DNA from: Desulfatitalea alkaliphila
GTDB lineage: Bacteria; Desulfobacterota; Desulfobacteria; Desulfobacterales; Desulfosarcinaceae
Length of the DNA: 64,000 bases
Direction: 5' to 3'
Assembly (NCBI RefSeq): GCF_022968795.1
Contig: NZ_JALJRB010000003.1
Span: 248,001-312,000 of the forward strand
Numbering within the stretch: the first letter of the stretch is position 1; each line of letters starts with the position of its first letter. The notes beneath the pieces were generated by a model. That model had not been told where the DNA came from. It ran no database searches and worked only from the letters and a program-made list of their open reading frames with translations. Shown piece after piece: positions 48,582 to 59,698 of this stretch. Position numbers and translations under genes: made by a program.

Positions 48582-50309
48582 CTACTCCGGAAAAAGCGGT
48601 ACGCGTTTGAAGGCTGTCACATCCACCAGCCCGTGATCGGTGATTTTCAGCGCCGGTATCACCGGCAAGGCCATGAAACTGAGGGTCATGAAGGGATCGG
48701 GCAGTCGGGCGCCCAACCGGCGGGCGGCGGCCAGCAATTCCTCCAGACCGTAGCAGACATGGTCGATGGGTTGGTCGGACATCAGCCCGGCGATGGGCAA
48801 CGCCAGGCGCGCCAGGCATCGTTCTTCGTCGACCACCACCAGGCCGCCACCCATGTCGGCCAAGACGCCCACGGCCGCAAGCATGGACTTGTCGTCGGCG
48901 CCGACCACCACGATGTTGTGGGCGTCGTGAGCCACGGTGGAGGCCAAGGCCCCCCGTTTGAGGCCGAAGCCGCTGATAAAACCGACCCCCGTGCGGCCGG
49001 TGCCCCGGTGGCGCTCGACCACGGCGATTTTCAACACATCGCGCCCGGTGTCGGCCACCACGCGGCCATCGCGGATCAGCGCCGCGGCTTCGGTGGCACC
49101 CGTCACAATCTGATCGGGCAGGGCCTCGATGACGCGGATGCGCTTGCCGTGGGCCGCCACACTGAAATCGAGCCGTTCCACCGCCACGCGCATGGGTGAG
49201 GGCGGCGCAGTCATGGTGCCGCCGGTTTCCGCATTGACCATGCGCCCCTCCTGGGCCGTCAAAACGCCGCCGCAATAGACCTGATGCACCTCCGGATCGT
49301 CCAGATCGTTCATAATCACAAGGTCGGCCCGCCGGCCCGGTCCCACGGCGCCGACGCTGCCGAGCCCGAAATACTCGGCCGGGTTGAGGGTGGCCATCCG
49401 GATGGCGATGACGGGGTCCAGGCCGGCGCGCACCGCCCGGCGCACCATGCTGTCGATGCCGCCCTGGCGGGTCAGGTCGTGGGCGTGGCGGTCGTCGGTG
49501 CACCACATCATGCGCCGCGCGTTGCCGGCGTCGATCACCGGCAGCAGGTCGTCCAGGTTGCGCGCCCCGGTGCCCTCGCGGATCATGATGTGCATGCCGG
49601 CCGCCAACTTTTCCCGCGCCTCATCGGCCGTGGTGCATTCGTGGTCGCTGGCGATGCCCGCAGCCAAATAGGCATGCAGCGCGTGGCCGCTCAGCCCCGG
49701 CGCGTGGCCGTCCAGCGGCTTGCCGAAGGCTTGCATGGCCTCGATCTTGGCCAGCACCTCGGGATCGGCATGGATCACCCCCGGAAAATTCATCATCTCG
49801 GCCAGGGCGACGACCCGTCGGTGGTCCATGAAAGGCTTGAGGGCCTCCACCCCCAAACGGGCACCGGCGGTCTCCATGGCCGTTGCCGGCACGCAGGAAG
49901 GCAGGGTGAACAGAAAGTTGAGGGGCTGGCTGGCGCTGGCCGCCAGCATGTAAGCAATCCCCTTGGCACCCAGCACATTGGCGATCTCGTGGGGATCGGC
50001 CACCACGGTGGTGGTGCCGTGGGGCAGCACGGCGCGGGCGAACTGGGTCGGCCCCACCATGGCGCTCTCGATATGCACATGGGCGTCGATGAAACCGGGC
50101 GCCACGAAACGCCCCTGCAGATCCACCTCGGTGCGGGCGACGTAGGGGCCGAACCCCACCACGAACCCATCGGCGACGGCGATATCCATGGGCGCCACCT
50201 TGCCGCTGAAGACATTGATCAACCGGGCATTGCGCAACAGCAAATCCACCGGCCGGTCCCCGCGGGCCGCTTCGAGCAGTTTCGGTAATGGCTTGTCCAG
50301 CGTGTGCAT
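48582..50309 (-). CDS. ade: Adenine deaminase Ade
   Basis: A 575-residue AdeC-type adenine deaminase (amidohydrolase superfamily), hydrolysing adenine to hypoxanthine and ammonia with Fe2+/Mn2+. 'VAPGFIDAHVHIESAMVGP' holds the first His pair, 'GTTTVVADPHEIANVLG' is characteristic, 'DGHAPGLSGHALHAY' and 'SDHECTTADEAREKL' follow, and 'CTDDRHAHDLTRQGGID' places the last acidic ligand. The C-terminal half is the usual AdeC extension. It lies 30 bases after the first mtaD gene and 32 bases before mtnA. Adenine salvage fits with the purine nucleoside phosphorylase at the operon start. Confidence 0.95.
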   Translation of the reverse strand: MHTLDKPLPKLLEAARGDRPVDLLLRNARLINVFSGKVAPMDIAVADGFVVGFGPYVARTEVDLQGRFVAPGFIDAHVHIESAMVGPTQFARAVLPHGTTTVVADPHEIANVLGAKGIAYMLAASASQPLNFLFTLPSCVPATAMETAGARLGVEALKPFMDHRRVVALAEMMNFPGVIHADPEVLAKIEAMQAFGKPLDGHAPGLSGHALHAYLAAGIASDHECTTADEAREKLAAGMHIMIREGTGARNLDDLLPVIDAGNARRMMWCTDDRHAHDLTRQGGIDSMVRRAVRAGLDPVIAIRMATLNPAEYFGLGSVGAVGPGRRADLVIMNDLDDPEVHQVYCGGVLTAQEGRMVNAETGGTMTAPPSPMRVAVERLDFSVAAHGKRIRVIEALPDQIVTGATEAAALIRDGRVVADTGRDVLKIAVVERHRGTGRTGVGFISGFGLKRGALASTVAHDAHNIVVVGADDKSMLAAVGVLADMGGGLVVVDEERCLARLALPIAGLMSDQPIDHVCYGLEELLAAARRLGARLPDPFMTLSFMALPVIPALKITDHGLVDVTAFKRVPLFPE

Positions 50310-50339
50310 CGCTTCCTCCCAAAGAGCCGCCGGTCGCGC

Positions 50340-51662
50340 TTATGTCGGCGCCGACACCGCAATCTTGCGGGCGAACCGGTTCGCGCGATCCATCAGGTCG
50401 TCCAGGTCAATGGTCAGCAGCCGCTGATCGCGCACGATCCAACGGCCGTCCACCATGACATGGTTCACATCCGCGGCCCGTGCGGCGTACACGAGATGGG
50501 ACGCCGGATGATAGAGGGGCGTCAAATGGGGCTGCGCCGTTTTCAGCACGATCAGGTCGGCTCGCTTGCCGGGGGTCAAAGAGCCGATCAGGTGGTCCAG
50601 TCCCAGGGCGCGGGCGCCCTGCACGGTGGCCATGCCCACCACCGTGGCGGCATCCATCACGGTGGGATCGCCCCGGTGCACCTTGTGCAGCTTGGCGGCG
50701 CTGTCCATCTCGCCCCACATGGAAAGGTCATTGTTGCTGGCGCAACCGTCGGTGCCCAAGGCCACGGTGACACCCGCCGCCAGGTAGTCGGGCACCGGCG
50801 CCACGCCGCCGGCCAGCTTCATGTTGCTTTGCGGGCAATGCACCACCCGGGCACCGGTGCGGGCGACAATGGCCACATCGGCCGCATCGGCCCACACCGC
50901 ATGCACCAGAAGGGTGCGCCCGTCGAGCACTCCGAGCCCATCCAGATAGGCGATGGGGCTTTGCCCATGCCGCCCCATCCAATCCTCCCGCTCCTGCCGC
51001 GTCTCGGCCACGTGAATCTGAAACAGCAGGCCCAATTCGTCCGCGGCCGCCTTGCCGGCCTGCAAAGTTGCGGCGGAGCAGGTGTAAGGCGCGTGGCAGA
51101 ATATGGCGGGCTGCACAAGGGGCGTTCCCGATTGCCAGCGGCCCACCACCTCCCGGGCCGCCGTTACGTTCAAAGTCGGATCGGGCACACCCGGTGCCGG
51201 GAAATCGATAACCCCCTGGCCGAGAATGGCCCGCATGCCGACACGGGCCACCGCTCCGGCGAAGTGATCCACCAGAAAATAGCCGTCACAGCAGGTGGTG
51301 ACACCCCCCAACACCATTTCGGCGCAGGAGAGTTCAGCCCCCAGGGCCACCGATTTCGGCGTGATATGGGCCTGCTCGGCCGGCAGAATGCGTTCCTGCA
51401 GCCACTGGTGCAAGGCCAGGTCATCGGCCATTCCCCGGAACAGGGACATGGGCAGATGAGTGTGGGCATTGACCAGTCCCGGCATCACCAGTGCGCCGCC
51501 GGCATCGATGGTCTCCCTGGCCTGGGGCAGGGTTTCTCCGGCAGCGGGCATCCACACATTGACAATGCCGCCGTCGCGGATGGCCAGCGCCCCGCGCGGC
51601 AATACCGAGAAAGCGTCGTCGACGGTGACAATCACGCCGTTATGAATCAGGGTTTCGAGCAT
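50340..51662 (-). CDS. mtaD: MTA/SAH deaminase MtaD, copy 1
   Basis: A 440-residue amidohydrolase of the 5'-methylthioadenosine/S-adenosylhomocysteine deaminase family. Zinc ligands: 'PGLVNAHTHLPMSLFRGMA', 'LFQIHVAETRQEREDW' His, 'LLVHAVWADAADVAIVA' His, and 'VALGTDGCASNNDLSMWGE' with the catalytic Asp. It should convert MTA to methylthioinosine, which the phosphorylase can then cleave. It lies 12 bases after the other mtaD gene; the two are about 45% similar by eye. ATG 51662 starts the conserved N-terminus ('MLETLIHNGVIVTVDD'). Confidence 0.93.
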   Translation of the reverse strand: MLETLIHNGVIVTVDDAFSVLPRGALAIRDGGIVNVWMPAAGETLPQARETIDAGGALVMPGLVNAHTHLPMSLFRGMADDLALHQWLQERILPAEQAHITPKSVALGAELSCAEMVLGGVTTCCDGYFLVDHFAGAVARVGMRAILGQGVIDFPAPGVPDPTLNVTAAREVVGRWQSGTPLVQPAIFCHAPYTCSAATLQAGKAAADELGLLFQIHVAETRQEREDWMGRHGQSPIAYLDGLGVLDGRTLLVHAVWADAADVAIVARTGARVVHCPQSNMKLAGGVAPVPDYLAAGVTVALGTDGCASNNDLSMWGEMDSAAKLHKVHRGDPTVMDAATVVGMATVQGARALGLDHLIGSLTPGKRADLIVLKTAQPHLTPLYHPASHLVYAARAADVNHVMVDGRWIVRDQRLLTIDLDDLMDRANRFARKIAVSAPT

Positions 51663-51674
51663 AAACAGGCAACA

Positions 51675-52976
51675 TCAGGCATTCTGTTTGAAAGCGGCCA
51701 CTTGTTCCAAGACCGCCTGCAGATCGATGGTCTGCAGCGTGCGGTTTTCCATGACCACTTGACCGTTGATCACACTGTGATGCACATCGCCGCCGTTGAC
51801 CGCGTAAACCAAGTGGGAAACCGGGTCGTACATGGGGGTCAAATGGGGTTTTGCGGTGTCAATGACAATCAGATCGGCCGCCTTGCCCGGTTCAAGGGAG
51901 CCGATATGCCGTTCCAGACCCAGAGTCCGGGCGGCATCGCAGGTGGCCATGCGCAGCACGGTGGCGGCATCCATGACCGTCGGGTCCAGGCGGTGCACCT
52001 TGTGCAGCTTGGCGGCCGTGTCCATCTCGCTGAACAGGTCCAAATCGTTGTTGCTGGCACAGCCGTCGGTGCCCAGGCCCACGCAGATGCCCGCCCGCAG
52101 CAGGTCCGGCACGGGGGCCACGCCCGAAGCCAATTTCATATTGCTTTCGGGGTTGTGGGCCACCTTGACGTCGTGCCGCCGCAGCAGGTCGATGTCATCT
52201 TCTGTGAGCACCACGGCGTGACAGGCCACCACATTGGGACCCAAAACGCCCAGGGCGGCCAAGTGCCCCACCGGCGTGGCGTTGTACCGCCCCTGGATGG
52301 TTTCCACCTCCGCCCGGGTCTCGGATACATGAATCACCAGCGGAGCATCGTGGTCGGCGGCCAGTCGCGCGGCCCGCTGCAACAGATCCGGCGCGCACAG
52401 GTAGGGCGAGTGGGGCTCGACGGCCACGCGAATCAAAGGATCGTCTTTCCAACGCGCCAGCATCTCCGCCACATAGGCGAACCCCCGTTCGAGGGGGCCG
52501 TAGTTGGGTGAATCGAAATCGTAGAGCACCTCACCGACCACCGCGCGCATGCCGCAGGCACCGGCGGCTTCGGCCACGGCCGATTCAAACAGGTACATGT
52601 CGCAGAAACAGGTGGTGCCCGCAAGAATCATTTCGGCACAGGCCAGGCGCGTGCCGAGCCCCACCATCGCGCCGTCGAGCTTGGCTTCGGCCGGAAAGAT
52701 GTGGTCATTGAGCCAGGTCATCAGGGGCAGATCGTCGGCCAACCCCCGGAACAGGGACATGGCGGCGTGGGTGTGGGTGTTGATCAACCCCGGCAGGATC
52801 AATCCGCCGCGGGCGTCGATTTCGCGGGCGGCGCGCCGGTCGGCCAGTTCGGCAACGGGGCCCAAGGCGGTGATGCGGCCGCCGTTCACCGCAACGTATC
52901 CGTCGGCAATACGCGTTCCCCGGTCATCCATGGTGATGACCGTGCCGTTGCGCACAATCAGGTCGGCTGGGCTCAT
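51675..52976 (-). CDS. mtaD: MTA/SAH deaminase MtaD, copy 2
   Basis: A 433-residue paralogue of the gene beside it, with the same metal sites: 'PGLINTHTHAAMSLFRGLA', 'PLVIHVSETRAEVETI', 'VVACHAVVLTEDDIDLL' and 'VGLGTDGCASNNDLDLFSE'. One copy may favour S-adenosylhomocysteine and the other methylthioadenosine, but the sequence does not tell which. The start is ATG 52976, whose bases overlap the stop of the phosphorylase gene (ATGA), so translation is coupled. A longer upstream frame reads through the phosphorylase gene and is not used. Confidence 0.93.
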   Translation of the reverse strand: MSPADLIVRNGTVITMDDRGTRIADGYVAVNGGRITALGPVAELADRRAAREIDARGGLILPGLINTHTHAAMSLFRGLADDLPLMTWLNDHIFPAEAKLDGAMVGLGTRLACAEMILAGTTCFCDMYLFESAVAEAAGACGMRAVVGEVLYDFDSPNYGPLERGFAYVAEMLARWKDDPLIRVAVEPHSPYLCAPDLLQRAARLAADHDAPLVIHVSETRAEVETIQGRYNATPVGHLAALGVLGPNVVACHAVVLTEDDIDLLRRHDVKVAHNPESNMKLASGVAPVPDLLRAGICVGLGTDGCASNNDLDLFSEMDTAAKLHKVHRLDPTVMDAATVLRMATCDAARTLGLERHIGSLEPGKAADLIVIDTAKPHLTPMYDPVSHLVYAVNGGDVHHSVINGQVVMENRTLQTIDLQAVLEQVAAFKQNA

Positions 52977-53857
52977 GGGGCCCCCTGCACATCTTCGGCC
53001 CCGCTCGCAAGGGCACCATCGGCAAGGCGCGTCAAAACCGCGCCGATCAGGCGGCCCAGAACCGGCGCCGTGGCGCGTGCCGCGTCGATGATGCTGTCCA
53101 CATCGGAGGGTGCCGGCTGATCGGGGGTGCACATATTGGTGATGGCGGAGAGGCCCATCACCTGCATGCCGCCGTGCACTGCGGCGATGACCTCGGTCAC
53201 TGTGGACAACCCCACCGCATCGGCGCCGATGGCCCGCAAAAAGCGCATTTCGGCCGGGGTTTCCAAGGAGGGTCCCTTGAGACCGACGTAAACGCCCTGT
53301 TGCAGGGCGATATCGGCCGCACGCGCCTCGGCCATGGCCATGGTCCGCAAATCCGGGGCATAGGCGGCGGTCATGTCGGGAAAACGTGGTCCCCAAAGAT
53401 CTTCGTTCGCCCCCACCAGGGGATTGGCGCCGGTCAAATTGATGTGGTCCCGAATGAGCATGATGTCGCCGGTGGCATAATAAGGATTGAGTCCTCCGGA
53501 CGCATTGGTGACGATCAAGGTCGACACCCCCAGGGCCTGCAGCACGCGCACGGGGAAGGCGACCGCCTTGGGTGTGTGCCCTTCGTAGATGTGAAAGCGG
53601 CCCTGGAGCACGGCCACCGGCAGACCGTTCAGATTACCGGCGACCCAGCGCCCGGCATGGGATTGAACGGTGGCGGCGGGGAAATGGGGAATCTGCCGAT
53701 AGTCGATCTGCGCCTGCACCTCCAATTGGTCGATCATATCCCCCAAACCGGTACCCGCGAGGATGGCCACCCGAGGCGCGCTACCGATTTGCTTTGCGAT
53801 GAAGTCGGCGGCGGCCAGGGCCTGCTGCCGGTTGTGGTCCGCATGGTTGTCGGTCAT
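52973..53857 (-). CDS. punA: Purine-nucleoside phosphorylase (PNP/MTI phosphorylase family)
   Basis: A 294-residue trimeric-type purine nucleoside phosphorylase. Phosphate and base sites: 'VAILAGTGLGDMIDQL', 'GRFHIYEGHTPKAVAFP', 'TLIVTNASGGLNPYYATGD', 'GPSLETPAEMRFLRAIGAD' and 'VGLSTVTEVIAAVHGGM' with the base-recognising Glu/Asn region ('SAITNMCTPD'). It may cleave inosine, guanosine or methylthioinosine; the adjacent mtaD genes favour methylthioinosine, as in the Pseudomonas route. It opens the seven-gene minus-strand run. ATG 53857 begins 'MTDNHADHNRQQAL'. Confidence 0.9.
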   Translation of the reverse strand: MTDNHADHNRQQALAAADFIAKQIGSAPRVAILAGTGLGDMIDQLEVQAQIDYRQIPHFPAATVQSHAGRWVAGNLNGLPVAVLQGRFHIYEGHTPKAVAFPVRVLQALGVSTLIVTNASGGLNPYYATGDIMLIRDHINLTGANPLVGANEDLWGPRFPDMTAAYAPDLRTMAMAEARAADIALQQGVYVGLKGPSLETPAEMRFLRAIGADAVGLSTVTEVIAAVHGGMQVMGLSAITNMCTPDQPAPSDVDSIIDAARATAPVLGRLIGAVLTRLADGALASGAEDVQGAP

Positions 53858-54194
53858 AGTGCAACACTTTCCGTTGATCGTTTGAGCGGTGAACGCAAGC
53901 GGCGCGCCACCTGCCGCAAGATCTCCGCCGTAGCAGGCAGCGGCGCCGCGGGCCGCCACTTAAGTGTCAAGGGTTATAATCCAGCCGGCGGACAGCGTCA
54001 AGACGACGATCCGACGGATGCAAGCGCACCATTTCACCTTTCGAATGGATACGATGTCAATTGACATTTTCACCCTATTATGACAAGTTCCCTCCTTGGC
54101 AAATTGCGCCCCCGCGGCGGCGCAGCGAATACTTTCACGACGCGAACGGTAATGGCGCCCGACACCTCGGGTCAAGACCGCAAGGAGCACCCGT
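53858..54194. other. 337-base divergent intergenic region
   Basis: Between the salvage operon (leaving left) and the NuoE-like gene (leaving right). It has a perfect palindrome ATGTCAATTGACAT at 54055-54068, a TTATAAT at 53974-53980 without a good -35 partner, and AAGGAG before the ATG at 54195. No gene or RNA is visible. Confidence 0.55.
54055..54068. promoter_or_regulatory. Palindrome ATGTCAATTGACAT, candidate operator
   Basis: A perfect 14-base palindrome in the divergent promoter region of the purine-salvage and transhydrogenase-like operons, containing overlapping TTGACA (-35-like) on each strand. It could bind a dimeric repressor or simply be a pair of -35 boxes. Confidence 0.4.
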
Positions 54195-54689
54195 ATGAGC
54201 ACCTTTGAACACCCGGAGCACCCCGATATCGACGAGGCCATGTGGTCGCGCATCAACCAGGTGATCGATACCAACCGATCCGTTTCAGGCGCCATCATCA
54301 CCGTGTTGCGCGAGTGCCAGGACGTGGTGGGCTACCTGCCCGTGCCGTTGCTCGACTACATCGGCCGGGGGATGAACCTGCCCCGCAGCGAAGTCTACGG
54401 CGTCGCCTCTTTCTACGCCCTGTTTTCCATGACCCCCAAAGGGCGCCACACCATCAAATTGTGCCTGGGCACGGCCTGCTATGTGAAAGGCATCAAGGAG
54501 GTCATGAGCCGCATTGAAAACAAGTACCATGTCAAAGACGGCGGCACGACCGAGGACCGGCGCTTTTCCGTGCAAGGCGTACGCTGTCTCGGTGCCTGCG
54601 GCTTGGCACCGGTGGTGGTGATCGGCCAGGACACCCACGGGGATGTAACCTCCGATAAAATCATCGATATTGTCGAGAGATATGAATAG
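54195..54689 (+). CDS. NuoE/HndA-like [2Fe-2S] thioredoxin-fold subunit
   Basis: A 164-residue NADH dehydrogenase 24 kDa-type subunit. Helical N-part 'GAIITVLRECQDVVGYLPV' and 'VASFYALFSMTPKGRHTI' are typical; the [2Fe-2S] ligands are the two Cys of 'LCLGTACYVKG' and the two of 'GVRCLGACGLAPVV'. As HndA/HydC/NuoE it passes electrons to or from the FMN subunit. AAGGAG lies seven bases before ATG 54195. It opens a run with a DRTGG gene, NuoF-like gene, RnfB-GltD and RseC. Confidence 0.93.
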   Translation: MSTFEHPEHPDIDEAMWSRINQVIDTNRSVSGAIITVLRECQDVVGYLPVPLLDYIGRGMNLPRSEVYGVASFYALFSMTPKGRHTIKLCLGTACYVKGIKEVMSRIENKYHVKDGGTTEDRRFSVQGVRCLGACGLAPVVVIGQDTHGDVTSDKIIDIVERYE

Positions 54690-54794
54690 GCCGGCGCCCC
54701 GCTTCCTACCACGGCGCGACAACCGAACAACCTCATAAATGGCAGCCCCTTTGGCAGTACAACGAACCCGATATCGGGCTTGCCGGACACAACC

Positions 54795-55148
54795 ATGAAA
54801 ATCGAAGAACTCAAAACCATTCTCAAAGCGACGGTCGTGGTGGGCGAAGACCAGCTCGACACCGTGATCACCGGAGGTGGCGCGGCGGAACTGATGGAGG
54901 ACGTGTTGTCCGCGGCCGCCAAGGGGTGCGCCTTGCTCACCGGCGCAACCACGGCCCGCGTCATGCAAACGGCCCGCGTGATGCAAGTGGGGGCCGTGGT
55001 GATCGTGCGTGGTAAACAGCCGACCGAAGAGGTGATCAAGCTGGCCCGCGATTTCAACATCGCTTTGCTGTCAACGGAATATTCCCTGTTCGTGGCCTGC
55101 GGCCGCCTCTACATGAACGGCATGAGGGGATTGGACGGGTCCTGGTAA
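54795..55148 (+). CDS. DRTGG-domain protein
   Basis: A 117-residue single DRTGG domain ('LKTILKATVVVGEDQLDTVI', 'GALLTGATTARVMQTARVMQ'-like core cut as 'LLTGATTARVMQT', 'VIVRGKQPTEEVIKLARDFN', 'LLSTEYSLFVACGRLY'). DRTGG domains bind ligands, possibly nucleotides, and accompany Hnd-type hydrogenase and transhydrogenase gene sets in anaerobes, presumably as regulators. ATG 54795 is chosen over an upstream TTG at 54780; neither has a strong ribosome site. It sits between the NuoE- and NuoF-like genes with gaps of 105 and 19 bases. Confidence 0.75.
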   Translation: MKIEELKTILKATVVVGEDQLDTVITGGGAAELMEDVLSAAAKGCALLTGATTARVMQTARVMQVGAVVIVRGKQPTEEVIKLARDFNIALLSTEYSLFVACGRLYMNGMRGLDGSW

Positions 55149-55167
55149 TGGTGTAGGAGCTAACAAG

Positions 55168-57015
55168 ATGCCCAAATTTACGGTTGAGGATCTGAAATCC
55201 ATCAAAGCCGGGCATGCGGACCGGCTGGCCTTCAAGGACAAAATCTACCTGCTGATCTGCGGCGGAACGGGCTGCCACGCCACCGGCAGCTTGAAGGTCA
55301 AGGATGCGCTGCTCAGCGAACTGGCCGCCAAGCAGCTTCAAGACAAGGTGACGGTGGTGGAGACCGGTTGCAACGGTTTTTGCGCCATGGGCCCCCTGAT
55401 GGTGGTGCACCCCGGGGATGTGTTCTATCAGAAGATCGCCCTTGACGACATTCCGCGCATCGTGCAGGAGCACCTGATCGACGGCAAGATCGTCGAAAAA
55501 CTGCTTTACAAGGATCCATCCACCAAAAAGCCCATCGCGGTGCAAACCGACATTCCTTTCTTTGCCCACCAGATGCCGCGGGCCTTGCGCAACAAGGGGC
55601 TCATCGACCCCGAATCCATCGAAGACTACATCGCCCGCGACGGCTATCTGGGTGCTGCGCGGGCCCTACTGGAAATGAACGCCGAACAGATCGTGCAGGA
55701 GATGATCAAATCGGGAATGCGCGGCCGGGGCGGCGCCGGTTTTCCCACGGGGGTCAAGTGGGATTTCGCCCGTAAAAGCGAAGGCGACATCAAGTACGTG
55801 CTGTGCAACGCCGACGAAGGCGACCCCGGTGCGTTCATGGACCGCAGCATTCTGGAAGCGGACCCCCACGCCGTGCTGGAAGGCATGATCATCGCGGCCA
55901 AGGCCATCGATGCCCGCAAAGGCTACATCTACGCCCGCACCGAATACCCGCTGGCCATCACCCGACTGCAGATCGCCATCGCCCGCGCCAAGGAGAACGG
56001 CCTGCTGGGCCAAGACATTCTGGGCTCGGGATTCGACTTCGACATCGAAATCTACCAAGGCGCAGGCGCCTTCGTCTGCGGTGAAGAGACCGCCTTGATG
56101 CGCTCCATCGAAGGCCGCCGCGGCATGCCGCGCCCCCGGCCGCCCTTTCCGGCCCACAAGGGGCTTTGGGAAAAGCCGACCATCCTGAACAATGTGGAAA
56201 CCTTGTGCAATGTGCCCCAGATCATGCTCCACGGCGGCGACTGGTACGCCTCGGTGGGCACCGCCACCAGCAAGGGCACCAAGGTGTTCGCCATGTCCGG
56301 GGATGTCAACAACATCGGCCTGGTGGAAGTCCCCATGGGCACGCCGTTGCGCACCTTGATCTACGATATCGGCGGCGGCATTCCCAAGAAACGCAAGTTC
56401 AAGGCGGTGCAACTGGGCGGGCCCTCGGGCGGCTGCATTCCCGAACAGCACCTCGACACGCCGGTGGATTACGAGGAGATCAGCAAGGTGGGCGCCATCA
56501 TGGGCTCGGGCGGCGTCATCGTCATGGACGAGAACACCTGCATGGTGGACATGGCGCGGTTTTTCATGGACTTCATCCAGGAGGAATCCTGCGGCAAGTG
56601 CACACCCTGCCGCGAGGGCACGCGACGCCTGCTGCAGTTGCTGGAGAAGATCAGCCAGGGACGCGGTGAGCCGGGCGACATCGAAACCATGGAAGCCCTC
56701 TCGCACACCATTCGCGAAACGGCCCTGTGCGGCCTGGGGCAGACCGGTCCCAACCCGGTGCTCTCCACCTTGCGCTATTTCCGCGACGAGTTCGAGGCCC
56801 ACATCTACGAAAAACGCTGCCCCGCCAAACGGTGTGTGGATCTGCTGGAGTTCGAAATCGATCCCGAACTGTGCACCAAGTGCGGGCTTTGCGCCAAAGC
56901 ATGTCCGGTGGATGCCATCGTCTGGCAGAAAAAAGAGGTGGCCCGCATCGAAAAAGACAAATGCATTAAATGCCTGACCTGTTACGATAAGTGTAAGTTC
57001 GGCGCCATCATGTAA
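55168..57015 (+). CDS. NuoF/HndC-like NADH:FMN subunit with N-terminal and C-terminal Fe-S domains
   Basis: A 615-residue HndC/HydB-type subunit. It begins with a thioredoxin-like [2Fe-2S] domain ('LICGGTGCHATGS', 'ETGCNGFCAMGP'), then the NuoF core: FMN/NADH loop 'GMRGRGGAGFPTGVKWDFAR', 'NADEGDPGAFMDRS', and N3 cluster 'ESCGKCTPCREGTRRLLQLL'. Two C-terminal [4Fe-4S] ferredoxin motifs end it: 'CTKCGLCAKACPVDAI' and 'CIKCLTCYDKCKFGAI'. This is the bifurcating-hydrogenase type, yet no HydA hydrogenase is present nearby. It is 19 bases after the DRTGG gene and 29 bases before the RnfB-GltD gene. Confidence 0.94.
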   Translation: MPKFTVEDLKSIKAGHADRLAFKDKIYLLICGGTGCHATGSLKVKDALLSELAAKQLQDKVTVVETGCNGFCAMGPLMVVHPGDVFYQKIALDDIPRIVQEHLIDGKIVEKLLYKDPSTKKPIAVQTDIPFFAHQMPRALRNKGLIDPESIEDYIARDGYLGAARALLEMNAEQIVQEMIKSGMRGRGGAGFPTGVKWDFARKSEGDIKYVLCNADEGDPGAFMDRSILEADPHAVLEGMIIAAKAIDARKGYIYARTEYPLAITRLQIAIARAKENGLLGQDILGSGFDFDIEIYQGAGAFVCGEETALMRSIEGRRGMPRPRPPFPAHKGLWEKPTILNNVETLCNVPQIMLHGGDWYASVGTATSKGTKVFAMSGDVNNIGLVEVPMGTPLRTLIYDIGGGIPKKRKFKAVQLGGPSGGCIPEQHLDTPVDYEEISKVGAIMGSGGVIVMDENTCMVDMARFFMDFIQEESCGKCTPCREGTRRLLQLLEKISQGRGEPGDIETMEALSHTIRETALCGLGQTGPNPVLSTLRYFRDEFEAHIYEKRCPAKRCVDLLEFEIDPELCTKCGLCAKACPVDAIVWQKKEVARIEKDKCIKCLTCYDKCKFGAIM

Positions 57016-57044
57016 GCGGCGCCGCTGAACCGGGAGAATTCAAT

Positions 57045-59105
57045 ATGGGTATTGCGATCCTGCTGATGGGTGGATTGGGGCTGGCGGTCGGCATCGGTCT
57101 GGCCATTGCCTCCAAGATTTTCTATGTTTATGTGGATCCCAAGATCCTGGCCGTCGAGGCGGCGCTGCCCGGCGCCAACTGCGGCGGCTGCGGCTATCCG
57201 GGATGCTCCTCAAACGCCGAGGCCGTGGTGGCCGGCAAAGCGGCGCCCAACTCATGCGTGGCGGCCGGCCCCGAAGTGGCGGAAGCCATCGCCGCCATCC
57301 TGGGGGTGAGCGTCGAAGCCAAGGAACCGGACATCGCCCGGCCCGGCTGTACCTACGGCGTGGCCGACGCCGATACCAAGTTTCTCTATGACGGCCTGAA
57401 CGACTGCCGGGCCGCCGCCCTGCTCAATGGCGGGATGAAGGTGTGCACCATCGGTTGCCTGGGACTGGGCACTTGCGCCCGCGCCTGTCCCTTCGACGCC
57501 ATCACCATGGGCCCCGAAGGGTTGCCGGTGGTCGATGAAGTGCGCTGCACCGGATGCGGCACCTGCGAACGGGTCTGCCCGAAAAACATCATCACCCTCT
57601 CGTCGGTCACCCGCCGGATTCTCAAGGAGTACACCACGGAAGAGTGCACCACCCCCTGCCAGCGGGCCTGCCCTGCCGGCATCAACATCTGTGGTTACAT
57701 CGGCGCCGTGGCCGAAGGCGACCATGACCGCGCCGTGCAGATCATCAAAGAGCGCAACCCGTTTCCCACCGTCATCGGCCGCATCTGCCCGCGTCCCTGT
57801 GAAAACGAGTGCCGCCGGCAATACGTGGACGAACCGGTGGCCATCAATTTCCTCAAGCGCTGCGCCGCCGACCATGAAATGGAAGGCGGGCGCCACATCC
57901 AACCCTACAAGGCGCCGGACACAGGCCGCCGGGTGGCCGTCATCGGCGGCGGCGTGCAAGGTATGTCGGCCGCTTTTTTCGCCGCCCGTTTGGGACACGA
58001 CACCACGGTCTATGAAGCCGGCGAACAACTGGGCGGCCTGCTTCGCAGCGCCATCGCTCGGCAACGCCTGCCCATGTCCGTTCTGGATTGGGATATCGAG
58101 GGCATTCTGGACATGGGGGTCAAGACCCACACCGGTCGGCAGCTCGGCGACGATCCGACCATCCCCGATCTTTTGGCCGAGGGATACCAGGCGGTCCTGC
58201 TTGCCGTGGGCGGTTGGGACAGTCGCCTGACCCGCACCCAAGGCCGGGGCGAGGCCAGCCCCGCGCCGGGATGCCGGCTGCTCATCGATGTGGCCAAGGC
58301 CGGTGACGGCGCCGGCTATCCCCCGATCCAATTGGACGGCCACATCGTCATCGTCGGCAACGCCCACTTGCAACCGGCGTTGATTGAGCGCTGCAAGGCC
58401 CTGGGGGCCTCCCGCATCACCTTGATCAGCCGCGAGGCTGATCTGTCTGCCATCGACCCGGAACAAGTCGACATTCGTATCAATGTGGGTCTCAGCAAGC
58501 TCACGGGAAGGGGCGACAACCTGGAGGCGGTGGAACTGACGGACCTGGACAGCGGCACGCGCGAAACCATCGATGCGCGCCACGTGGTGTTCGCCGCCGG
58601 ACGGATCCCCGAACTGATCTACACGCCGGTCCCCGACACGGCCGACGCAACCGCTTCAACGGAGCCGGTGGACGGTGGCGGCGCGATTGCCTGGGAAGCC
58701 TTTCCGCCCTACAAACAGCCGGCCTTTCACCATGAGATCGGTGTGATGGCGCCGGGCGATGCCCTCACCGACTTCTCGGCCGCAATCAAGGCCATCGCCG
58801 CCGGAAGAAGGGCGGCGGCATCGATTCACCGACGCCTCTATGACATGCCCCTGGACCTGCCCGAGCACGTAGTGGCCCCGGACACCCCGGTGCAGAATGT
58901 CCACTCCGTGGAACATGTGCCGGTCCGCCTGCGCCGGATCATGCCCCTGGCGGACGCGGACCAGATGGCACGAGGCGCCGAACTGGAACAGGGATACACA
59001 CCGGAAATGGCCAAGGCGGAGGCGGATCGTTGCCTGCAATGCGGCCTGATCTGTTACCTGCGGGAGAAGTCGCCGGCTCCCCAACAAATCGCCGCCGGCC
59101 AGTGA
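57045..59105 (+). CDS. RnfB-like ferredoxin domain fused to GltD-type FAD domain
   Basis: A 686-residue fusion. Residues 1-28 form a membrane helix ('IAILLMGGLGLAVGIGLAIA'). The RnfB-type cluster domain follows: Cys46, Cys49, Cys54 and Cys71 (CX2CX4C...C, 'ANCGGCGYPGC'). Then two ferredoxin motifs ('CLGLGTCARACPFDAI', 'CTGCGTCERVCPKNII'). From about 200 the protein is GltD-like: Cys-rich 'CTTPCQRACPAGINICGYIG', 'GRICPRPCENECRR', FAD loop 'VAVIGGGVQGMSAAFFAAR' near 299. The expected second nucleotide loop near 434 reads 'VIVGNAHLQPALIERC', lacking the GXGXXA pattern. The C-terminus has 'CLQCGLICY'. Together with the NADH subunits it resembles StnC/NfnB of electron-bifurcating transhydrogenases, here membrane-tethered. 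Name and partner inferred. Confidence 0.85.
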   Translation: MGIAILLMGGLGLAVGIGLAIASKIFYVYVDPKILAVEAALPGANCGGCGYPGCSSNAEAVVAGKAAPNSCVAAGPEVAEAIAAILGVSVEAKEPDIARPGCTYGVADADTKFLYDGLNDCRAAALLNGGMKVCTIGCLGLGTCARACPFDAITMGPEGLPVVDEVRCTGCGTCERVCPKNIITLSSVTRRILKEYTTEECTTPCQRACPAGINICGYIGAVAEGDHDRAVQIIKERNPFPTVIGRICPRPCENECRRQYVDEPVAINFLKRCAADHEMEGGRHIQPYKAPDTGRRVAVIGGGVQGMSAAFFAARLGHDTTVYEAGEQLGGLLRSAIARQRLPMSVLDWDIEGILDMGVKTHTGRQLGDDPTIPDLLAEGYQAVLLAVGGWDSRLTRTQGRGEASPAPGCRLLIDVAKAGDGAGYPPIQLDGHIVIVGNAHLQPALIERCKALGASRITLISREADLSAIDPEQVDIRINVGLSKLTGRGDNLEAVELTDLDSGTRETIDARHVVFAAGRIPELIYTPVPDTADATASTEPVDGGGAIAWEAFPPYKQPAFHHEIGVMAPGDALTDFSAAIKAIAAGRRAAASIHRRLYDMPLDLPEHVVAPDTPVQNVHSVEHVPVRLRRIMPLADADQMARGAELEQGYTPEMAKAEADRCLQCGLICYLREKSPAPQQIAAGQ

Positions 59106-59179
59106 GGTTGCCGCCCTTCACGCCAGGTGCCGCGGCCTGAGCGTCGGCGGATACCAACAGCGCCGCCGAGGAATGCCCC

Positions 59180-59698
59180 ATGGCCATCGAACAAGGCATC
59201 GTCATCCGACAGGGGGACCGCCCCACCACCGTCTGGGTGCAAACCGTGCGCTCCAGCGCCTGTGAATCGTGTGCCTCACGGGACAGTTGTCGCACCGCCG
59301 AAACCGGCGAAAACCAGGAGGTCGAAGTGTTCAACACCGCCGGCGCACGCGTCGGTGACCGCATCCAGCTGATGATCCGAACAGGGTCCTTGCTTAAAGC
59401 CACCTTTCTGCTGTATATTTTCCCCATCTTGGGCATGCTGGGCGGCGCGGTAGTCGCCCAAACGATCACCGATGGATTGCGGTTGTGCAATTCGTCGGTG
59501 GCCGCGGCCATCGGCGCTTTGGCGGGATTGGTCGCAGCGCTCGCGTACGTGCGTATACGCGGCCAACGCCTTGGCAACGAATCGGCCTACCGGCCCCATA
59601 TTGTTCGCATTCTCGGCCGTGCACCCCTCGATGCCCATGACGCCTCACCGACCGTTCATTGCCAGATCGGCAATGCCGGTCCATCACATGGGAAATGA
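59180..59698 (+). CDS. rseC: RseC/MucC family membrane protein
   Basis: A 172-residue RseC-type protein. Cytosolic N-terminus with four-Cys cluster 'SSACESCASRDSC' (CX2CX5C), then two membrane helices ('FLLYIFPILGMLGGAVVA', 'SSVAAAIGALAGLVAALAYV'). RseC in E. coli reduces SoxR together with Rnf, so finding it right after an RnfB-like gene supports a redox link. The tail (about 135-172) is unusual and polar. ATG 59180 is used. It follows the fusion gene by 74 bases and precedes the PilZ gene by four. Confidence 0.85.
   Translation: MAIEQGIVIRQGDRPTTVWVQTVRSSACESCASRDSCRTAETGENQEVEVFNTAGARVGDRIQLMIRTGSLLKATFLLYIFPILGMLGGAVVAQTITDGLRLCNSSVAAAIGALAGLVAALAYVRIRGQRLGNESAYRPHIVRILGRAPLDAHDASPTVHCQIGNAGPSHGK

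Follow-up and report, generated by a model that had tools for sequence, protein, structure and literature searches.

Which enzyme is encoded where two subunits of an NADH-dependent, electron-bifurcating flavoenzyme stand directly before a membrane-anchored hybrid of RnfB and GltD? We addressed this question for positions 54195-59698 of a 64,000-nucleotide stretch of Desulfatitalea alkaliphila (contig NZ_JALJRB010000003.1; this whole stretch is called the window), where genes for HndA, HndC, an RnfB-GltD fusion protein (W) and RseC follow each other. The original prediction, made from the DNA letters, saw here a membrane-tethered, Stn- or Hnd-like transhydrogenase. Our analysis upholds its bifurcating core (BfuBC), its membrane helix, the lack of a hydrogenase and the suggestion of an Rnf-like link to the membrane, and it finds the gene order again in relatives; it does not uphold the transhydrogenase or the view of W as a Stn subunit with an added anchor. 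Gene content, cluster ligands of the core, RnfB ancestry, loss of the NADP motif and recurrence are features of the sequences themselves, and on these W is an RnfB paralogue with a GltD-like FAD module and a lost NADP motif. Tentatively, and with slightly less than even confidence, we propose that W serves as an alternative electron-input subunit of Rnf, which would here be loaded by a BfuBC core of Type 4 that confurcates NADH and ferredoxin. A complex of BfuBC with W, its docking on Rnf, the direction of electron flow and the coupling to ions are what we infer from this arrangement.

The gene unit

The unit comprises five genes:

54195-54689, + strand: HndA / BfuC, NuoE-like [2Fe-2S] C1 subunit (164 amino acids; PF01257, 153.6 bits)
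54780-55148, + strand: DRTGG-domain protein (122 amino acids; PF07085, 31.7 bits, cut-off 25.2)
55168-57015, + strand: HndC / BfuB, NADH- and FMN-binding bifurcating subunit (615 amino acids; Complex1_51K, NADH_4Fe-4S, Fer4 and thioredoxin-like [2Fe-2S] domains)
57045-59105, + strand: W, RnfB-GltD fusion (686 amino acids; PF04060 FeS, Fer4 domains, Fer4_20 PF14691, Pyr_redox_2 PF07992)
59180-59698, + strand: RseC/MucC-type membrane protein (172 amino acids; RseC_MucC PF04246, 114.5 bits)

Open reading frames and Pfam domains thus confirm the four genes that had been named, all on one strand. The DRTGG gene between HndA and HndC had been overlooked; it remains with W in many genomes that have no HndA and HndC there. 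The gaps along the unit measure 90, 19, 29 and 74 bp, a spacing as in an operon, and the terminal RseC protein has two hydrophobic stretches with hydropathy peaks near residues 74 and 106. The source genome (5.07 Mb) is 99.68% complete. The closest named record found for W, a protein of Desulfatitalea sp. SH-MAG143, is 82% identical, and the fusion is not an assembly artefact, because full-length orthologues recur across the order.

A bifurcating core without BfuA

By published criteria, HndA and HndC have the sequences of an electron-bifurcating core. Their closest solved structures are subunits C and B of a bifurcating NiFe hydrogenase (7t2r_C, E 1.8e-41, for HndA; 7t2r_B, E 4.4e-253, for residues 26-614 of HndC). 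HndA combines the PF01257 domain with Cys90, 95, 131 and 135, the [2Fe-2S] C1 feature of BfuC. For HndC, the available text of PMC9304861 gives the ligands of cluster B2 in A. mobile as C438, H525, C531 and C536, with C476 variable, and describes the histidine as not present in non-bifurcating homologues. These residues correspond to Cys458, His545, Cys551 and Cys556 of HndC, and the variable position to Ser496. In an alignment of 33 BfuB sequences above 850 bits, which includes a BfuB-GltD fusion (L077, 871 bits), His545 and the B1/B2 cysteines are invariant (33/33); position 496 is Cys in 26, Ser in three (as in the window), Thr in three and Ala in one. The B3/B4 cysteines are kept in 31 to 33 of the 33, and the four N-terminal B5 columns hold Cys in all 21 sequences with letters there, the 12 others being truncated loci with gaps. 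The published F182 found no match in HndC by offset; the A and M residues of that paper did map.

A Pfam scan of the window found no BfuA-type gene beside HndA and HndC in the cluster, and the core therefore fits Bfu 'Type 4' (Schut et al. 2022, PMC9304861), which likewise has BfuB and BfuC with their ligands, no BfuA and an unrelated third partner. The Type 4 example described there uses rubrerythrin, whereas W stands in that place here, and the word 'Rnf' occurs in the available text of that paper only in the reference list. The unit is accordingly a candidate Type 4 Bfu with an RnfB paralogue as partner: it carries the sequence features of BfuBC and RnfB, and lacks the NADP site of Stn and the operon position of RnfB. 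The genome's only other full-length BfuB match adjoins its own BfuA-HdrA gene. It belongs to a second Bfu complex (L065 943-6810, contig C35) with BfuC, BfuB and a 1113-amino-acid BfuA-like/HdrA-like flavoprotein fusion, followed by Fe-S proteins.

As far as PF02906 can tell, the predicted lack of a hydrogenase gene extends to the whole genome: this [FeFe]-hydrogenase domain gave no match there, in a search where only Thermotoga maritima was positive among 14 controls. Among 60 relatives, 29 have HndC beside W, and 25 of these 29 have no PF02906 match either; the other four do (G029, E 3.9e-92; G032, G047 and G057, with frames of about 450 amino acids and only E 1e-21 to 1e-23). A HydA acting in trans was rejected on these counts. 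At one locus (L087 3831-10043), HndA and HndC occur without W and adjoin a DRTGG gene, a PHP gene and a sensory-type [FeFe]-hydrogenase-like protein, a gene order which suggests that W-linked BfuBC and DRTGG derive from a hydrogenase cluster.

The fusion protein and its NADP site

The domains of W are arranged as follows:

57048-57119, + strand: N-terminal transmembrane helix, residues 2-25 (hydropathy; helix 2-25 in the structure model)
57165-57260, + strand: RnfB FdI-type [4Fe-4S] domain, residues 41-72 (PF04060, 47.7 bits; Cys46, 49, 54, 71)
57435-57614, + strand: two [4Fe-4S] ferredoxin motifs, residues 131-190 (Fer4 matches; eight cysteines, invariant in the 77-sequence set described below)
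57627-57914, + strand: GltD-type Fe-S domain, residues 195-290 (PF14691, 70.1 bits)
57915-58244, + strand: FAD Rossmann domain, retained, residues 291-400 (GxGxxG, Gly301/303/306, in 64/64 W-type proteins)
58317-58664, + strand: decayed NADP-type Rossmann domain, residues 425-540 (GxGNxAxD in 0/64 W-type proteins)

W is one protein in a single frame, with an RnfB-type helix at its N-terminus, as had been predicted (Kyte-Doolittle maximum 2.45 at residue 3). It exceeds the TIGR01944 rnfB cut-off (86.3 vs 68.7 bits); residues 5-192 match RnfB (9eri_B, E 1.7e-52), and residues 192-672 match 9bov_A (E 2e-61). The structure model has a mean pLDDT of 72.6, poor at 89-140 and 179-201, and its listed Foldseek matches are GltD-fold proteins with query-normalised TM-scores of at most 0.38, which say little beyond the GltD part.

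The same genome encodes a second RnfB-GltD fusion (R), 41% identical to W and the last gene of a cytochrome-rnfCDGEA operon (L026). To compare the two types we assembled 77 full-length fusions that passed our script filters, 64 of W-type and 13 of R; a number of loci where the gene is cut or split (L035, L080, L107, L121 and L124 among them) are not part of this set. The four FdI cysteines are present in 64/64 W-type and 13/13 R proteins, and the GltD cysteines 201, 205, 209, 248, 252 and 256 in all 64 W-type proteins. The NADP motif GxGNxAxD occurs in none of the 64 W-type proteins vs all 13 R proteins, the RR motif in 4/64 vs 12/13, and both together in 0/64 vs 12/13. In eight genomes that have both proteins, second Rossmann domains share on average 34% pairwise identity among W and 73% among R; the other domains reach 54-86% in W, with 66% for its FAD Rossmann domain, and 59-84% in R. 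With its NADP motif broken and its second Rossmann domain decayed, W is unlikely to use NADP+ as a substrate.

These data bear directly on the predicted transhydrogenase, a membrane-tethered enzyme of the Stn/Nfn type in which the GltD domain of the fusion would be the site where BfuBC couples NADH and ferredoxin to NADP+. StnC does carry a GltD-like domain on a similar core in the available descriptions (PMC7483475, PMC10482914), and the top sequence and fold matches of the GltD part of W include Nfn-Bfu A subunits, StnC and NfnL. The motif is nevertheless gone from every W-type protein and kept in R, and it is intact in three other GltD proteins from related genomes (L070, L076, L077); moreover, Pfam finds no NuoG-like part in the 686 residues of W. 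We rejected the transhydrogenase on the motif loss and the domain decay, and consider it highly improbable. Nor is W a Stn subunit that gained an anchor: besides lacking the NuoG-like part, it branches with the RnfB-GltD proteins of rnf operons and often has no NADH genes adjacent.

At two loci (L070 8078-11275; L077 6374-9481), a BfuB-GltD fusion that keeps the NADP motif is flanked by a BfuC-like gene on one side and, on the other, by a gene whose N-terminus is FdhA/NuoG-like. Frames of like length (1034-1085 amino acids) occur in 10 of the 60 relatives, and these two are the ones that were read. Such loci are a likelier site of a Stn-like transhydrogenase than the window. As substitutes for HndC where W stands without it, these fusions showed no clear pattern, and that idea was dropped.

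W belongs to the RnfB lineage

W has the sequence features of RnfB, namely the N-terminal transmembrane helix, the FdI FeS domain, the ferredoxin clusters and the TIGR01944 match. In a quick tree of the 77 fusions, computed with the NADP columns omitted, R forms one group (branch 100 SH-aLRT) opposite W and W-like proteins. The gene in the window lies outside the rnf operon, though W-like genes at other loci lie inside it: they close the rnf operon in L105 and L110 and come after rnfA in L109, and a convergent RseC gene lies behind them. These three are early-branching; L104 and L111 fall on the same side of the tree, on contigs too short for operon context. Stand-alone W-like RnfBs beside cytochrome-rnf operons (L127, L129) are 57% and 56% identical to the RnfB part of W vs 47% to that of R.

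In five relatives (G006, G008, G010, G013, G033), R does not follow rnfA in the cytochrome-rnf operon and did not turn up at any other place; each of the five has W. G004, G007 and G040 allowed no call on R. In G010 (95% complete) and G008 (64%), W alone matches over the N-terminal RnfB model. A similar role within the own genome, where W would have filled in for a second Rnf-like operon without RnfB, was considered and rejected: judged by sequence and gene order rather than by family search, that operon looks like Nqr with its own NqrF. The genome's TIGR01945 matches outside the C3 operon are ferredoxin-type, NuoF or Nqr parts. In Desulfotignum phosphitoxidans, the rnf cluster is described as a cytochrome gene plus rnfCDGEA, with no rnfB named in the available text (PMC4046663).

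A probable selenocysteine at the FdI cluster

Eleven W genes were listed with an in-frame TGA, and all were inspected. In nine (L185-L191, L193 and L195, the last being the same locus as L035) the TGA replaces the codon of Cys46, the first cysteine of the FdI cluster, and the frame runs on to its usual end, or to the contig end in L193; in L192 and L194 the TGA is only the terminal stop. A stem-loop, GGGCTGCCGGG[TG]TGCAGC, starts about 10 nt after the TGA in all nine genes and in none of 81 genes with a Cys codon (W, R and other RnfB together), 18 of which specify an identical peptide. The groups are not told apart by hairpin stability alone: the TGA genes range from -9.4 to -10.8 kcal/mol, and 5 of the 18 reach -9.2. 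HndC is beside W in all nine, cut by the contig end in L188. These codons probably specify selenocysteine as a ligand of the [4Fe-4S] cluster in RnfB. The window's own W has cysteine at this codon (57180-57182), and for D. multivorans the available text of PMC5109826 lists five selenocysteine genes, RnfB not among them.

Two donors near W

Among the 60 relatives, for which W and HndC coordinates were paired by hand, 48 have W: HndC is adjacent in the 29 mentioned above and not beside W in 17, and two (G027, G031) received no call. G026 and G048 were checked individually and belong to the 17. Across the class (389 genomes; HndC orthologue cut-off E <= 1e-280; W listed from 150 genomes), HndC orthologues occur in 128, and in at least 63 of these HndC adjoins W on the same strand with a gap of 18-555 bp. 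A further 38 HndC genomes are not among the 150, and at least four of them (G003, G025, G036, G047) have the pair. The HndC-W pair is recurrent, not obligate.

Of 66 W loci (score >=600, duplicates removed by hand), 29 have HndC nearby (in one case a remnant), ten formate dehydrogenase and three rnfA, and 24 have none of the three; RseC lies close to W in 48. The remnant, a 98-amino-acid C-terminal piece of HndC before W (L017 1191-1484, G023), and a short HndA remnant before W (L196 5196-5414, G026, where W itself is split into overlapping frames) are traces of NADH gene loss. Divergent nucleoside phosphorylase, amidohydrolase and adenine-deaminase-like genes, which occupy 48582-53959 (- strand) of the window, stay beside the HndA-W unit, HndA/HndC alone or W alone in many relatives.

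The ten loci with formate dehydrogenase (L076, L078, L079, L099, L103, L108, L114, L117, L123, L125) place W within a few kb of an FdhA with a NuoG-like N-terminus (for example L079 1068-6118 and L117 3027-8052). This FdhA is probably a selenocysteine formate dehydrogenase; its gene is split into two abutting frames, and the in-frame TGA was read in L117 only. FdhA and W are codirectional in L079, L114 and L076 and divergent in L117, L078 and others; between them lie a NuoF/GltD-type subunit in L076 and two unidentified genes in L099. In the stretches examined at these ten loci, the NuoF-type partner of FdhA is mostly missing near W. It is mainly because two unrelated donors sit near W, mostly without their usual partner, that we read W as an input adaptor.

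How the unit may work

RnfB is described as being reduced by ferredoxin and as passing the electrons on to the RnfA/E cluster through its mobile FdI cluster (PMC9588780, PMC12174285); BfuBC is described as merging NADH and ferredoxin electrons at FMN and clusters (PMC9304861). In our proposal, the BfuBC core would merge electrons from NADH and reduced ferredoxin, or run in reverse, and BfuB would pass mid-potential electrons to the GltD and RnfB clusters of W. The FdI cluster of W would then hand them to the RnfA/E-G-D core encoded elsewhere (cytochrome-rnfCDGEA), so that NADH/ferredoxin input may drive, or be driven by, the ion pump. RseC may assist: it is required for a functional RNF in Clostridium ljungdahlii (PMC9124969), which fits its place behind W.

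Several observations weigh against this proposal. HndC is not beside W in 17 of the 46 genomes with W that allowed a call; in 27 of the 128 HndC genomes the listed W lies elsewhere, in some through contig breaks, and 60 of the 150 listed W genomes have no HndC match at the cut-off, an overcount, with contig-cut HndC in at least G001, G024 and G324. Along the tree, the adjacency of HndA/HndC to W (present in 25, missing in 36) must have changed at least nine times. Apart from W, HndC can adjoin FdhA (L184) or the sensory-type hydrogenase-like protein (L087). Three R-less genomes (G006, G013, G033) also carry a small RnfB. Finally, the five R-less genomes all belong to the 17 in which W lacks HndC, and the 27 that have HndC next to W include none (Fisher p 0.006, only a hint, with G040 counted as not R-less and kinship ignored); they support W as an RnfB, and not W with BfuBC as a feeder of Rnf.

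The separability of HndC and W, the other neighbours of HndC at L184 and L087, and the genome's second Bfu complex with its HdrA-fused BfuA would suit an explanation in which W is an RnfB and BfuBC a soluble enzyme in its own right whose partner, for instance of HdrA- or FdhA-type, is supplied in trans, the operon reflecting co-regulation only. The tight, conserved adjacency of HndC and W in at least 63 genomes argues against this, as do the lack of a BfuA-type gene beside the BfuBC of the window and the occurrence of W near FdhA, a second donor mostly without its usual partner; we regard a separate enzyme as unlikely. The same adjacency, and the position of W, BfuBC and RseC outside the rnf operon, could instead point to an anchored BfuBC-W complex that operates independently of Rnf and hands its electrons to a different membrane acceptor, menaquinone or RseC for instance. 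W retains the RnfB helix and cluster motifs, however, no quinone-binding subunit was seen in the unit, and R-less rnf operons occur in genomes with W, so that an Rnf-independent complex likewise seems improbable to us.

The input subunit that we favour may be one case of a wider scheme, which we regard as possible but doubtful: an Rnf with swappable inputs, in which one core would be served by several RnfB-GltD adaptors, R being NADPH-linked, W working with the confurcating BfuBC and another with formate dehydrogenase, and in which the gate cluster would be selenocysteine-ligated in some lineages.

Relation to known systems

A large RnfB has already been published. Desulfobacula toluolica Tol2 represents an Rnf type in which RnfB has about 700 amino acids and NAD-binding sites, RnfC has no NADH site, and the cluster includes a cytochrome gene (PMC5109826). 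By its described features, rather than by sequence comparison, this large RnfB is the paralogue R. It resembles W in joining RnfB to a nucleotide-binding part; W of the window differs in lying outside the rnf operon, in its linkage to BfuBC and RseC and in its decayed nucleotide domain, and the available text of PMC5109826 mentions no W-like second copy. StnABC and Nfn-Bfu (PMC7483475, PMC10482914) share with the unit a BfuBC core and a GltD-fold subunit, but the GltD part of W is fused to RnfB, not to NuoG as described there, is membrane-anchored and has no NADP motif. A precedent for an exchanged electron-input module on an Rnf-type core is NqrF, which replaces RnfB in Na+-NQR; according to the available text of PMC12174285, however, NqrF is not related to RnfB and has an FAD of its own at which it oxidises NADH. 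PMC4215793 makes no mention of RnfB, GltD, a fusion or RseC. In the literature we covered, which included few subscription papers, we came across no pairing of W with either BfuBC or FdhA.

Our results offer a third partner for the orphan Type 4 BfuBC cores and suggest a possible purpose for the puzzling large RnfB of sulfate reducers. They also outline how, in concrete terms, NADH could reach the Rnf pump, namely through confurcation with ferredoxin. If inputs are indeed swappable, the unit would be the first case of a Bfu core coupled to an Rnf pump, either driving it or being driven by it. Should one adaptor accept both formate dehydrogenase and BfuBC, Rnf would be an ion pump of general use whose inputs can be exchanged, a possibility at which Nqr already hints.

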